Below are positions 2,215 to 8,990 of a stretch of DNA of 64,000 nucleotides, piece by piece. This stretch comes from Capsaspora owczarzaki ATCC 30864 (taxonomy: Eukaryota; Opisthokonta; Filasterea), in NCBI RefSeq assembly GCF_000151315.2, contig NW_011887294.1, forward strand, positions 658,500 through 722,499. The letters are read 5' to 3'. A model generated the notes under the pieces. The model was given only the letters and a program-made list of their open reading frames with translations, had not been told where the DNA came from and did no database searches. Both the position numbers and the translations under genes were made by a program. Each line of letters starts with the position of its first letter. Positions within the stretch are counted from its first letter, which is position 1.

Positions 2215-5200
2215 TTACGCAACGCGCCAGAGAGAGCCCTTGCGGCCGAGGAAGGCACTGCGCTGCGAAGACTGCAAGTCCTTCTCGAGGTCGCGCACCT
2301 GGCGTTCGCGCAGCTCGGGAGATTCCACGGCGCCGGAGGTGGCGGCGGTGCCAGAGCTGGCGCGAATCTTCTCGGCAGCGGTGATCAGCGAGGTGGTGGC
2401 GCGGGTGACGCCACGCGACGACTCTTCAACTTCCTGCTGCGAGTTGCTGTTGACATGCTCCTGCACCTGGGAGGCCGCAACAAGGCGAGCGGAGTCGGAC
2501 GACACGCCGCTGGCGGCGCGGATGAGCGTGTCAATGGAGCCAGAGCCGTTCATGACAAGGTCAGCAGCGCTCACCAAAGCGGTGATGGAGGTGGACAGCT
2601 CGCGAGCAGTCGAGACGAGCACGTCGGTGAACGACCGGTCGCGGTTGGAAAAGTTGGCAGAGTGGAAGTGGCGACCGAGAATAGCAAGCTCGTTCACGCG
2701 GCTACGAGCGCTCTCGACGAGCGACGAGACTGAAATGACGATCGGGAAGATGGCGTCAATGACGGCACCCTGGAGCTGCGAGTCGGAAGCAACCACGGTG
2801 TTGCGATGCGGGCGCGAGCGAGAGTCGGCCAGCGAGCGGTTGGCGCCGGCAATCGACTCGGCAATGAGTCGGAGCTGAGAGTCTGCCTCGAGGTACTGGC
2901 TCGAAACGTCGTTCGCAGGTGCGACGTCGGCAACTGGAGCGCGGCCTTGCTGGATAAAGTCCTCAAAGCTGTCGCGACGAGTCAGGGCAGTCTTCAAGAA
3001 GCGTTGCGCAGGGTTGACGGGCGCAGCGCCGGCAGAAGCAGGCTGCGTGGTGGGGGTGGTGGTGACGGACGCCACGGCCGAGGCAGCCACAGGTACCTGC
3101 TGCTGCTGAGTGCCAGAAGCGGCGGCGGCGGCGGCGGCGATGGACTCAAACTGGGCCTTGATGGCAGCCGTGCCATTGAGGAGAGCACGCATGGACTCGA
3201 CGACGAGCGCGCCAGTATCCTCAAGGGTCTTCTTGGCAGCCGGCGAGCCGTCAATCATGGACTGAGGCACCACCGTCAACAAGCGGACGGAGGTGTGGCA
3301 AATGGCCTTGAGCGCGGTGGAGAGCTGCGAGCGGAGGCGGGCATCGGTGAAAGCCTGGGCCATCTGACGGCCAGCAGCAAGCACTGGTGGCAGAGCCGCT
3401 CGGTAGTTGGTGGCAGCTTGGACCACCAGGGCAACGTGGCCAGGGGTGGCCACGGCCGAACCAAGGCCCTTGAAGGCGTCGGACAGCGCATTGGCACGCT
3501 GGTGGAGCAAATCCGCGGCAGTCACCACGGCGGCGGCCGCAGCCGCGGGGTTGGCGGGCGCGAGCTCGCTGAAAGGGTCGTCCAGGTGCGAGCTGATGGT
3601 GGCAATCGTGTCGATCGCAAGCTGGCACTCGCGGTTGCCGGGCAGCGCTTTGATGATGGCCGGGAGGGCTTGAGAAATGTACTCGGCGAGCGAGGCAAAG
3701 CGGCCGCGGTTTTCACCGACGCCAGGATCGGCAAGAACGGCGCCGACAGTCTCAATCAGCTGGGCAGACTTGTCAAGAATGTCCGTAATGCCACCGAGCA
3801 GTGCGTGCTGGCTGGAAGGGTCGGTCAGCGAGCGGGTCAGCCCAATGGAGGTCTTCTCGAGCGAACGGAGGGCAGCGGCAACGTTGGCTGCGTCCTGGAT
3901 GATGGACAGGGAGGCCGTCTGGTCGCCGGCGCGACGCAAGAGCGACAGGTTGTTGTTGAGCTGCGAGATGGTGGCACCGACGCTGCGGACGGTCTGGGCC
4001 AGCTGGGGCACACGCGTGTCGAGCGGGACGTCGTCGCCGACGCCGAGGTTGCCGGTGCTGACCATGCCGTAGGCAGTCTGGGCAGTGAACAAGCTGTTGC
4101 GCACAACCTGAAGCGAGGCCTGGATGCCCTGCTGGGCCTGCGGCGGGGGCGCGGCAGCGAAGGGGTTGGCAAAGGGGTTTTCGACGGCAGGCGCCGCAGT
4201 GTCGAATGGATTGTTCGCCTCGGGGGCCAGAGTGTTGGTCGGCATATCGTCATCAAAGTTGATGAGGAGGTCAGGCTCGGGCGCGTGGACGGGGGCAGCA
4301 GCAGCAGCAGCAGTAGGGCCGGCAACACGGGGCACAGGGGCAGGCGATGCCGCCAACGCGGGTGCGTTGCTGGTGGCAGAGTGTGCATGTTCGGAACTGG
4401 CAATGGCCTTGGTCGCCTTCTCGGGCTCGGGATAGGAGATGGTGAACGGCAGCTTGACAATGAGATCAGAGCCCATCGCGACAACGGCGTGCACGTTAAT
4501 GTAGTAGCTGACGGTGACGCCTGGGCCGAGATCGGCGGTGGTGTGCGTCAGACGCGTGGTGGCGGCAAGCTGGGCGTTGTCGGCCATGTTGAGCTTGTAC
4601 TCTTGGGCGACGTGGTGCGTCTCCTGGGTCGTCACCTTTGGCGTCACGCTGTACGTTGACGAGAACTCGGAATGCTTCTTGATGGGGCAGCCGCGGGTCG
4701 ACTCGATGGTGGCCACGACGGACTTGATCTTTTCGCGCAGGCTCGTTTCAAAGCGGACCTCGACAATCTGCTTGACGGAGATCTTGATGGCGCACACCTC
4801 CTTCTTGGAGAGGTTTTCAATCTGCACCTTGACGTTGATGGGCTCGTTGTGGTAGAAGACCTCCTTCTCGAGCGTGGCCTTCAGGGTGAGCGGACGCGCA
4901 TTGTCAAACATGAAGCTCTTCTGGCCAGAGGCCGACGGAGGCTTGACGTCTGTGAGCAGCGGGAAAAAGTTGATCTTCTGGAAGGGCAGCGTGACAATGC
5001 TGGTGCGCGTGCCCGACGAGATGCCTGCGAGCCAGGTGCGGACGGTCCAGCTGATGCCGATCGGCTTGCCCTCAAAGTACGACTCGGGCTTGAGGATGAC
5101 CGAGGCGGGCAGGTCGTGCGGGAGGCGGACAATGAACGGGAAGCAGGCGCCGCCCACCTTGCGGACGAGCGCGCGCTGAGCTGCAGTCGTCTCGTACGCC

Positions 5201-6177
5201 TCGGTCGAGTTTGGGTGGAGCTCGACTTGGCGCTGGTAGAAGGTGTCTTCATGGATGTCCCAGTTGGAGTCTTCGTAGACGTAATCGCACGCGACTTGCG
5301 CGATCAGAACTGATTGATTGGAGCAGATGAACAGACAGAGACGTTAGGAGTGAGATTGGCGAGTTGGATGAAGATTCGAGTTGCTATTCCACCACTGTCA
5401 CTCCTATCAGCGCTGTCATCGTCCATTTGCTTTCAGATTCAAGCAAGCGAATTGATGGGCGTTGTTTGTGATACGCTTGTTTGGCACGCCCCCAAAGCGC
5501 AAGCCCCAGCCCCAGCCCAGCCCAGCCCTGCAAGGCGAAAAGGCACGCTCGTCTCCCAAATAAAACACAATCTTCCGCCGTTGCTCATTGGATTCCATTG
5601 GAGTTACCCCCCGTCCCCCCGTCCCCCATTCTCATCAAAAGGAGTGCACAGTGGCAGCGAGTGAGAGAGAGAGAGAGAAGCAGGTCCCGCACGCCAACGC
5701 AACGAAGCAATGGTCGAACCAAGCAGATTCAAGTAAAAAAAAAAAAAAAAAAAAAAAAAACGGGCGAGTCCTTTTGTGAGACGATGACAAAGAGCTGCTT
5801 TTTGTTGGGTTACCCTTGTTCTCGAGGAACTGGCGCTCGGAGACCTTGATGACGCCCTCGATCAGATCAATCTCGCCGCCGTGGTCGAAGATCGTGCGGC
5901 CGCCTGCCCCCCCCCCCAACAGTAACAAAATCCAATTTCAAAAAAACGAATAAAATTTTGAAAAAAAAAAAACGCGTTCAAAGTGAGTTTTCAAAGCAAC
6001 GCGAACAACGACAAGGACAAGAACAAGGACAAGAGCAAGGACAAGGACAAGCGTATGGAAGGCGGGTGAGAAGGGGGGGAAGAGCGAGAGAGAGAAAGAG
6101 AGAGAGAGAGACAAACCGAGATAGACGCCCATGATCTTGTCCTTTGAGTTGCGATAGTTGAATGTACGAGTCGTCAT
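2215..6177 (-). CDS. Arrestin-fold protein fused to an actin-binding I/LWEQ (THATCH) domain
   Basis: Exons 6177-6117, 5903-5814 and 5309-2215 join to 1,081 residues, starting at ATG 6177. Residues 1 to about 335 are an arrestin fold (VYLGGRTIFDHGG, then DYVYEDSNWD, and N- and C-lobe strands with PESYFEGKPIGISWTV). Near residue 397 is a clathrin-box match, LINFD, and at about 417-435 are three NPF motifs, the ligand of EH domains. A long Ala-rich helical region follows. Residues about 900-1035 read as I/LWEQ blocks (LVSTARELSTSITALV, LIRAASGVSSDSARLVAAS, VTRATTSLITAAEKI), as in talin, HIP1R and Sla2, and a final heptad segment (LRERQVRDLEKDLQ) sits where the family has its dimerisation latch. 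Inference: an endocytic adaptor linking arrestin-type cargo to clathrin, EH proteins and F-actin. The domain calls are by eye. I know of no animal arrestin with this layout. Confidence 0.85.
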
Positions 6178-6949: not shown

Positions 6950-8836
6950 ATGGACCAGCCGTCTGCCGCTACGTCGACGACTACCACTGCAACTGCTCCG
7001 AACCCCTTGCCTGCCTCGCACTCTACGTCTACTTTTAGCTCACAGGCAGAGCCGCTGACGGAGCGACCAACCCAGAAACGACCCATGGAGCACGACGAGT
7101 CCAATCCGGATGCAGCTCCCGCAGACACGAGCGACGAGCAACAGGCTGCGAAACGCACCCGCTTCGGCACCCGCTATCTCGAAGACGAAAGCCAGGTGTT
7201 TGAGCAGAATGCATGGTGCGTCTCGCGTGATGGAACCTCGAAAGATGCTGACAGTCCCGATGAGGACACCTTTTTGACCATTGTTGAATGCCTTGTTCGT
7301 GCAGGGACAATGTCGAGTGGGATCCCGAGCAGATCGAGTACGCCAAGAAGGTGGTGCGCGAGCAGGCGTTGACAATGGTGTCTGAAGCTGATCGAGGTAG
7401 GGCTTGCTCTGGTTTTTTTTTTTTTTTTTCCTTTTGGATGCTGGGTGTCGTGCTCGCTTGGTCCTGACGGTTGTCGTGCTGACGTTGATGCTCCTCCTCC
7501 ACCAAATCCACAGAACGTTACGAAGCCGAGGCTGGAGAGTTTTGGAACAAGTTTTACTCTCAGCATGACACAAAGTTCTTCAAGGACCGCAACTGGCTCT
7601 TCACCGAGTTTCCCGAACTCATGCCAAGCGAAGTAAGTGTTGCAAAACCCCTGCAGTGAATCAAGCGCGCGTGTGGGTGGTCGCCTTTGACATGAGATTC
7701 CTTCTTCACCTCATGACGCTTTTTTTTTTTTCGAATGAAATGTCAGAACTCGACAGACTCGTACCACATCTTTGAGCCTGGCTGTGGCGTTGGCAACACC
7801 GTCCTTCCCATCTTGCAGACAAACCGCAACCCCAACTTGCGAGTGTATGCAGCCGACTTTTCCGCACGAGCTGTCGAGTTACTCAAGGTACAGCGGAAAA
7901 TGCGAAAAAACGAGTTTTGCTTTTTGTCCGTTTTCTCCCCCCCCCTCTCCCTGCTGATTGTGTGATTGCTTGATACGTTTTATGCTCGTCTTCCTTTCAC
8001 ATTTCGGTGCTCCAGGAAACTCCGCTGTTCCAGGCAGAGCAAGCGAGGTGCCAAGCATTCGTGCATGACATCACCTCTACAGATCCCTATCCGATTCCGG
8101 AAGGATCGCTCGATGTTATCATCATTATTTTCGTGCTCTCTGCCGTCGATCCCAGCAAAATGCAAGATGCCATGACAAGATTAGCTCGCGTAAGCGAGGC
8201 GACAAGCATCGCTCCCGTGTTCGTTTTGTTCGCTCGCTCAATCATCAGTCATTGTGTCTCACTGATATTTTTTTGTTTCACCTTCGCGTGCTGCAGTTGC
8301 TCAAACCAGGTGGCGCACTCCTGCTGCGCGACTACGGACGGCACGATCTCACTCAGCTCCGCTTCAAAAAGAACAAGATGCTTTCCGACAACTTTTATGT
8401 GCGAGGCGATGGCACTCGAGTGTACTTTTTCTCGCAAGGTTAGCAGACTTGCATTGTGGAATTGGTGAAGGAAGAGTTGGGATTCTGATGAGAGTTGAGA
8501 GTGTTTGGTTTAATTTTTTGGTTTTTTGGTTTGTTTTGTTTTTGTTTTGTGGTTTTGGTTTTGCTTAACTTGCGCTCCTGGCGTGCTACAGACGATTTGG
8601 ACTCGATGCTGACCAAGGCCGGCCTGGTCAAGGAATTCAATCGCCCTGACAACCGTTTGATTGTGAATCGCGCAAAGCAAATCAAAATGTATCGCGTTTG
8701 GCTTCAGGTCAAGTACGTCAAGCCTTTCGCCGACGGATCTCTTCCCGCGCCGCTGGTCAGCACCGCCGTCGTTCCGCCTGCAACCAGCTCTCCGGCTTCG
8801 GGCTCTGGATCCAAGAGTGCTGAGATGGATGAATAG
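6950..8836 (+). CDS. METTL2/METTL6/Trm140-type tRNA 3-methylcytidine methyltransferase
   Basis: Seven exons (6950-7215, 7305-7396, 7514-7632, 7747-7887, 8016-8189, 8297-8438, 8592-8836) give 392 residues. The family signature [19 protein letters not shown], spanning the first intron, is followed by [23 protein letters not shown], and the SAM-binding motif [12 protein letters not shown]; later come [10 protein letters not shown] and [10 protein letters not shown]. These enzymes methylate C32 in the anticodon loop of tRNA-Thr, -Ser or -Arg, depending on the subfamily. Length matches human METTL2 (about 378). The frame is open back to 6497, but the upstream translation is repetitive and the start at 6950 gives the expected size. 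I cannot separate METTL2 from METTL6/8 by eye. A tRNA-Ser-like locus lies just downstream on the other strand. Confidence 0.9.
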
Positions 8837-8990
8837 TGGATCCGATCGTTGAGGGCTTGGTTTCAACTGCAATAAATTCAAGGCCGATCGTGAAAATTGT
8901 TTTGGGATGGTCTTAGAACGCGCGACAATTTGAGGGGTTTTGGTGGATGTGGCTCTGGCGTGTAAAGTAAAAATCAGAGTGTGATGCAAC

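Follow-up and report, generated by a model that had tools for sequence, protein, structure and literature searches.

An arrestin head, a talin-type rod and an I/LWEQ domain in one gene of Capsaspora owczarzaki: a candidate single-chain coat adaptor

In animals and fungi, choosing cargo, building coats and coupling to actin are usually tasks of separate proteins, which raises the question of whether one chain of Capsaspora owczarzaki, a close unicellular relative of animals, may do all three. The gene that raises it lies on the minus strand at positions 2,215 to 6,177 of a 64,000-nucleotide stretch of strain ATCC 30864 (contig NW_011887294.1, positions 658,500 to 722,499; hereafter the window). 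In keeping with this origin, both GAPDH qPCR primers published for Capsaspora (PMC9170242) have exact matches in the genome, about 0.5 kb from each other; a 90-base coYki homology arm given in that paper had no match there. The original prediction read it as a one-chain endocytic adaptor carrying, in order, an arrestin fold, a clathrin box, NPF motifs and an I/LWEQ domain, and this order is borne out by Pfam matches and motif positions. We place just on the probable side the reading of a single-chain coat adaptor whose arrestin head is largely unlatched and which connects cargo with clathrin, with EH proteins and, with less certainty, with actin.

One gene and its domain order

Three minus-strand exons, joined in frame at GT/AG borders, give 1081 codons closed by a TAA stop, and the 64-kb window holds no N letters. 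GC at codon position 3 tops the other two positions in 10 of 10 blocks of the long exon (one tie), as expected for one coding frame. The gap-free 1081-codon frame and its GT/AG borders uphold the prediction of a single gene with a 3.1-kb uninterrupted exon and two small in-frame 5' exons. That two neighbouring genes, or an assembly mis-join, have been taken for one gene is hardly conceivable given that the open exon of 1030 codons contains no N and carries its coding bias along the whole length, and that past the end of the arrestin homology the linker continues within the same exon. Mis-joined genes were accordingly rejected, on the grounds of the one gap-free frame and the coding bias throughout the long exon.

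A Pfam scan of the 1081-residue protein (expect value, E, up to 10) matched four families, each above its curated cut-off: Arrestin_N (residues 18-144, E 9.1e-12), Arrestin_C (residues 189-341, E 2.4e-13), Talin_IBS2B (residues 498-608, E 1e-12) and I_LWEQ (PF01608, residues 939-1055, E 8e-18, 65.4 bits against a cut-off of 27.5). All three families named by the original prediction (Arrestin_N, Arrestin_C and I_LWEQ) are thus present, and neither FERM nor ANTH is among the four. The features of the gene are as follows.

6117..6177, minus strand: exon 1, with the start codon at 6177; it opens the arrestin N-domain and aligns to the start of beta-arrestin
5814..5903, minus strand: exon 2, through which the joined frame follows beta-arrestin
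2215..5309, minus strand: exon 3, with most of the arrestin and everything downstream (1030 full codons and the TAA stop)
4414..6177, introns within these limits, minus strand: arrestin core, residues 1-349 (Arrestin_N and Arrestin_C; beta-arrestin-2 at E 3.9e-43)
4144..4413, minus strand: linker, residues 350-439, Pfam-free between the arrestin and Talin_IBS2B stretches
4252..4266, minus strand: clathrin box LINFD, residues 399-403, the sole such pattern in the protein
4204..4212, minus strand: NPF, residues 417-419, read from the sequence
4171..4179, minus strand: NPF, residues 428-430, likewise
4159..4167, minus strand: NPF, residues 432-434, likewise
3106..4143, minus strand: rod of talin type, residues 440-785, R5-R6-like and probably made of two bundles of five helices, from talin alignments
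2896..3105, minus strand: linker rich in Ala, Gln, Thr and Pro, residues 786-855, from the sequence; pLDDT (predicted local distance difference test) below 50 across most of it
2296..2646, minus strand: I/LWEQ domain (THATCH, talin R13-like), residues 939-1055, PF01608; phmmer matches with talin R13 and HIP1R reach further
2461..2469, minus strand: QVQ, residues 998-1000, at the KVK actin site of talin and HIP1R, from alignments
2221..2319, minus strand: short predicted C-terminal helix where the dimerisation/latch helix would lie, residues ~1048-1080, from a low-confidence model

The gene is tightly wedged between plus-strand neighbours at 538-1965 and ~6950-8840, which, by sight and with no search made, we take to be a TTC4-like TPR protein and a methyltransferase-like gene. 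A plus-strand frame of 641 codons without stops, at 2734-4659, runs antisense to the long exon, probably as a by-product of GC-rich codon use.

The arrestin head and its linker

Residues 3-349 match beta-arrestin-2, and the best 60 of the 66 matching PDB sequences are all arrestins; identity to the beta-arrestins is 31-32%, and a second arrestin encoded in this genome is 29% identical. The sites of the polar core and phosphate switch, numbered after beta-arrestin-1 (in part by our own assumption), are mostly changed: T24 stands for D26, T157 for R169, E287 for D290 and N291 for K294, and D297 is kept (as D294), so that one of the five is retained and another is a D-to-E change. The strand-I lysines are replaced by N and R, in a stretch where the alignment is less sure. 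What we take to be the finger-loop stretch carries a four-residue gap and an adjacent one-residue insertion compared with both beta-arrestins and the paralogue. From these changes we infer that the fused arrestin is not latched shut in the usual way.

Excerpts of a 2024 review describe how, in arrestin-1, neutralising the polar-core arginine makes receptor phosphates no longer needed, whereas other arrestins need charge reversal (PMC11173308). In the solved complexes the polar-core arginine itself makes no phosphate contact, whereas the lariat lysine does (PMC11173308). Because polar cores are less conserved among invertebrate arrestins (PMC11173308), an altered polar core is not proof of altered function. 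As to the suggestion that the arrestin picks receptor-type cargo, active recognition of phosphorylated receptors is doubtful because both the phosphate switch and the finger loop are changed.

The second arrestin (L028; contig C1, ~3,447,000, minus strand) is a protein of 461 amino acids with both arrestin domains and without the tail. At the sites of D26, R169, D290, K294 and D297 it has E, R, D, T and D, and both strand-I lysines are present. An AP2-type FAKFISDR lies near its C-terminal end, within the last 32 residues, in which neither a clathrin box nor NPF was found. Since the paralogue keeps the polar-core arginine and FAKFISDR and has no clathrin box or NPF in those last 32 residues, comparison of the two sequences suggests that the two arrestins may share out endocytic work, and its motifs, between them. 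Two arrestin-like proteins were counted in C. owczarzaki in a 2012 study, as far as its excerpts go (PMC3307776), and these are probably the fused gene and the second arrestin. The genome holds additional loci with single arrestin-domain matches. Two of these, L032 (C11) and L033 (C13), match Arrestin_C at 2.6e-8 and 6.1e-6; Arrestin_C was the only match in the two frames scanned, and they are possibly of the alpha-arrestin type.

The linker after the arrestin core contains LINFD, which fits what we take to be the clathrin box pattern (L-hydrophobic-x-hydrophobic-D/E), and three clustered NPF motifs, as predicted, at positions 399, 417, 428 and 432. When residues 346-445 were shuffled 100,000 times, 0.76% of the shuffles contained a clathrin box, 0.001% three NPF motifs and 5% one NPF or more, so that LINFD with three NPF motifs exceeds the expectation from composition. 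The AP2-type pattern, which we assume to be FxxFxxxR (searched as F..[FL]...R), was not found in residues 346-445. Candidate partners are encoded in the same genome, where a clathrin heavy-chain segment was matched along with seven EH matches at five places. Three EH frames were scanned. The first joins a dynamin-like part to EH (EHD type), in the second EH is the only family above cut-off, and in the third EH just reaches its cut-off (22.0 against 22) while a coiled-coil family stays below cut-off; this third frame sits at a place on contig C11 with three EH matches, presumably resembling Eps15-like proteins. For the proposed coupling to clathrin and EH proteins, the motifs and the candidate partners are therefore in place, and the binding itself is a prediction from sequence.

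The talin-type rod and the I/LWEQ end

Four PDB rows were matched by residues 440-785 (E up to 5). Three of them are talin-1 at ~1087-1349 (E 8.4e-11, 2.9e-10 and 5.5e-10), the region that we take to be R5-R6, and the remaining one is MICAL1 (E 0.16). Against residues 1105-1367 of the talin of the same genome, the rod scored 76.3 bits, whereas the highest score among 1000 shuffles was 41.2 (neither figure composition-adjusted); with composition adjustment the rod scored 50.1 bits (E 2.7e-10). The Pfam view of this talin, which covers part of the gene with R13 outside, includes FERM parts, Talin_R4, Talin_IBS2B (best at 1059-1220) and TLN1-like_RS (1219-1372). In the fused protein Talin_IBS2B was matched in three stretches and TLN1-like_RS was not matched by the Pfam scan, so the evidence for the second bundle consists of the alignments. 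Both proteins carry LPG[QN]R at the bundle junction, a pattern picked after alignment (LPGNREC at 606 in the fused protein, LPGQRDV at 1217 in talin). A single-sequence structure model, of low confidence, predicts ten helices across the rod. The segment described in the original prediction as a helical spacer is predicted to be helical, but it is no plain spacer, being homologous to talin R5-R6 with a match to Talin_IBS2B. Because this talin-type rod is colinear with R5-R6, the tail resembles talin no less than HIP1R/Sla2. A Sla2-type rod was rejected as its identity, as the match to the Sla2 of the same genome did not rise above chance (264 of 1000 shuffles scored as high).

The R5-R6-like rod is also the starting point of the main rival explanation, in which the protein is not a clathrin adaptor but a beta-arrestin–talin chimera at integrin or filopodial adhesions, supplying receptors with talin-type rod functions and endocytic turnover. 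Direct binding of human beta-arrestin1 to talin1 and to integrin beta1 has been reported (PMC9886921, excerpts), and talin was recruited by Capsaspora integrin tails in an assay (PMC6450878, excerpts), both of which are consistent with such a role. Nevertheless, the Pfam scan found no FERM, and the protein therefore has no known integrin-binding part; in addition, the genome has a separate FERM-headed talin and the linker bears coat-type motifs, so we regard an adhesion role as unlikely. A broader and rather unlikely idea is that the gene acts as a 'Rosetta stone': with beta-arrestin and a talin rod in one polypeptide, the human beta-arrestin–talin contact might reflect an old partnership of receptor uptake, integrin-type adhesion and actin, in which the fused head would be free of phosphate control and the paralogue would keep it. 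The fused gene also bears on the origin of the beta-arrestin–talin interaction.

At the C-terminal end, phmmer matched talin R13 (8.7e-9), HIP1R (1.5e-7) and Sla2 (4.6e-5). Identity to each of four aligned domains is 22.6-24.8%, roughly equidistant, with the R13 of the same genome's talin outside this set, and the four-domain comparison favours neither talin nor Sla2 as the source of the THATCH domain. The Sla2 of the same genome matches the domain at 73.6 bits with 39% identity across 94 residues (0 of 1000 shuffles as high), which would suit an actin tether of the Sla2/HIP1R kind, with the arrestin replacing the membrane-binding ANTH domain and cargo choice being secondary. This alternative is decidedly unlikely, since the rod shows no such match, the KVK site reads QVQ against RVK in that Sla2, and ANTH and I_LWEQ matches adjoin on contig C12, so that a regular Sla2 gene probably exists. 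A further I_LWEQ gene (locus L030, contig C17, ~630,000) was matched at 1.1e-32 and has STR at the KVK site. The proposal of an I/LWEQ module with a latch-like tail holds for the I_LWEQ domain; at the place of the latch, the last 34 positions of the model are unmatched and residues ~1048-1080 are predicted, at low confidence, to form only a short helix.

Proposed action and comparison with known systems

In the coat-adaptor reading, the arrestin head would hold membrane cargo and would probably be open most of the time, with cargo choice free of the classical phosphate switch because the latch is degraded. The linker would bring in clathrin via LINFD and EH proteins via the three NPF motifs, which may substitute for the absent AP2 motif. 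The talin-type rod would then be a spacer that bears force, leading to an R13/THATCH end whose contact with the actin cortex might be weak or limited to clusters or to conditions of load.

Several observations weigh against this reading. The shortened finger-loop stretch and the change of K294 to N suggest that receptor binding may differ from that of known arrestins (in the paralogue K294 is also changed, to T). Both kinds of linker motif, LINFD and NPF, are short, and a clathrin box arose in 0.76% of the shuffles. The structure models of the fused protein are of low confidence, and two structure searches with a rod-only model did not place talin among the best 50 matches listed in each. I_LWEQ also matches other rod bundles of the same genome's talin (at most 37.7 bits per stretch, compared with 70.1 here), so the Pfam name alone is not proof of R13. 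QVQ at 998-1000 stands where talin and HIP1R have KVK, the Sla2 of the same genome RVK and the fourth aligned sequence STR; F944 replaces a tryptophan common to all four other aligned domains; and I_LWEQ model positions 118-151 are unmatched. Actin binding may therefore be weak or gone. Excerpts of two papers identify KVK as an actin-contact site (PMC11665552, PMC11075885), and talin R13 mutants with KVK changed to DDD were reported to lose 40-73% of in vitro actin binding without abolishing it (PMC11075885). F-actin binding by this domain is thus plausible yet doubtful, and of the predicted HIP1R/Sla2-like actin tie the THATCH homology stands, whereas a purely HIP1R-like tail does not, the middle being a talin rod.

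The changes at several canonical switch and binding residues would also fit a decaying gene, whose fusion protein is shedding its arrestin and actin functions. An open frame of 1081 codons, a third-position bias and coat motifs above chance speak against this alternative, which is very improbable.

Cell biology of Capsaspora, as far as it is given in excerpts of one report, is compatible with the coat-adaptor reading: a dynamin inhibitor lowers low-density lipoprotein uptake, and aggregation, reported to need clathrin-mediated uptake, is blocked by clathrin, dynamin and Arp2/3 inhibitors (PMC13171883). The Arp2/3 result is weaker on this point, as the authors themselves caution that CK-666 may act via motility (PMC13171883). 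The fused protein could serve as a testable minimal module, Capsaspora being transfectable and gene-editable according to excerpts of two papers (PMC6001378, PMC9170242).

An arrestin–talin rod–I/LWEQ layout was not found described in the literature searched (titles, abstracts and excerpts, with most subscription journals outside coverage). Excerpts of PMC12716839 and PMC4824007 describe no such fusion, nor does the accessible part of PMC12686525, in whose main text the word 'arrestin' does not occur. A pattern search for relatives in viral contigs (5 matches) and bacterial/archaeal genome contigs (24) confirmed none, a result with little bearing on protists. The claim that the layout is undescribed fits this literature, although arrestins fused to other domains are already known from Dictyostelium. 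AdcA-F likewise combine an arrestin core with extra domains, and AdcA has a potential clathrin box; the domains added there are FYVE, C2, SAM, MIT or LIM, with talin rod and I/LWEQ not mentioned in the excerpts (PMC2699828, PMC3001460).

With HIP1R and Sla2 the fused protein shares a C-terminal THATCH-type domain and, as proposed, coat-to-actin coupling, but it has an arrestin in place of ANTH and a rod that is talin-like rather than like the Sla2 of its own genome. With talin it shares the colinear R5-R6 match and an R13-type domain in the same order; it differs in having no FERM head, a partial rod, QVQ for KVK and a short predicted C-terminal helix. In beta-arrestins the clathrin box is placed after the core, and the fused protein resembles visual/beta-arrestins in this position of the box, in a linker after the core, as well as in both arrestin domains. 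It departs from them in its mostly changed polar core, its shorter finger-loop stretch and the lack of FxxFxxxR in residues 346-445, and it adds to the arrestin plan the NPF motifs and a talin/THATCH tail of 640 residues.

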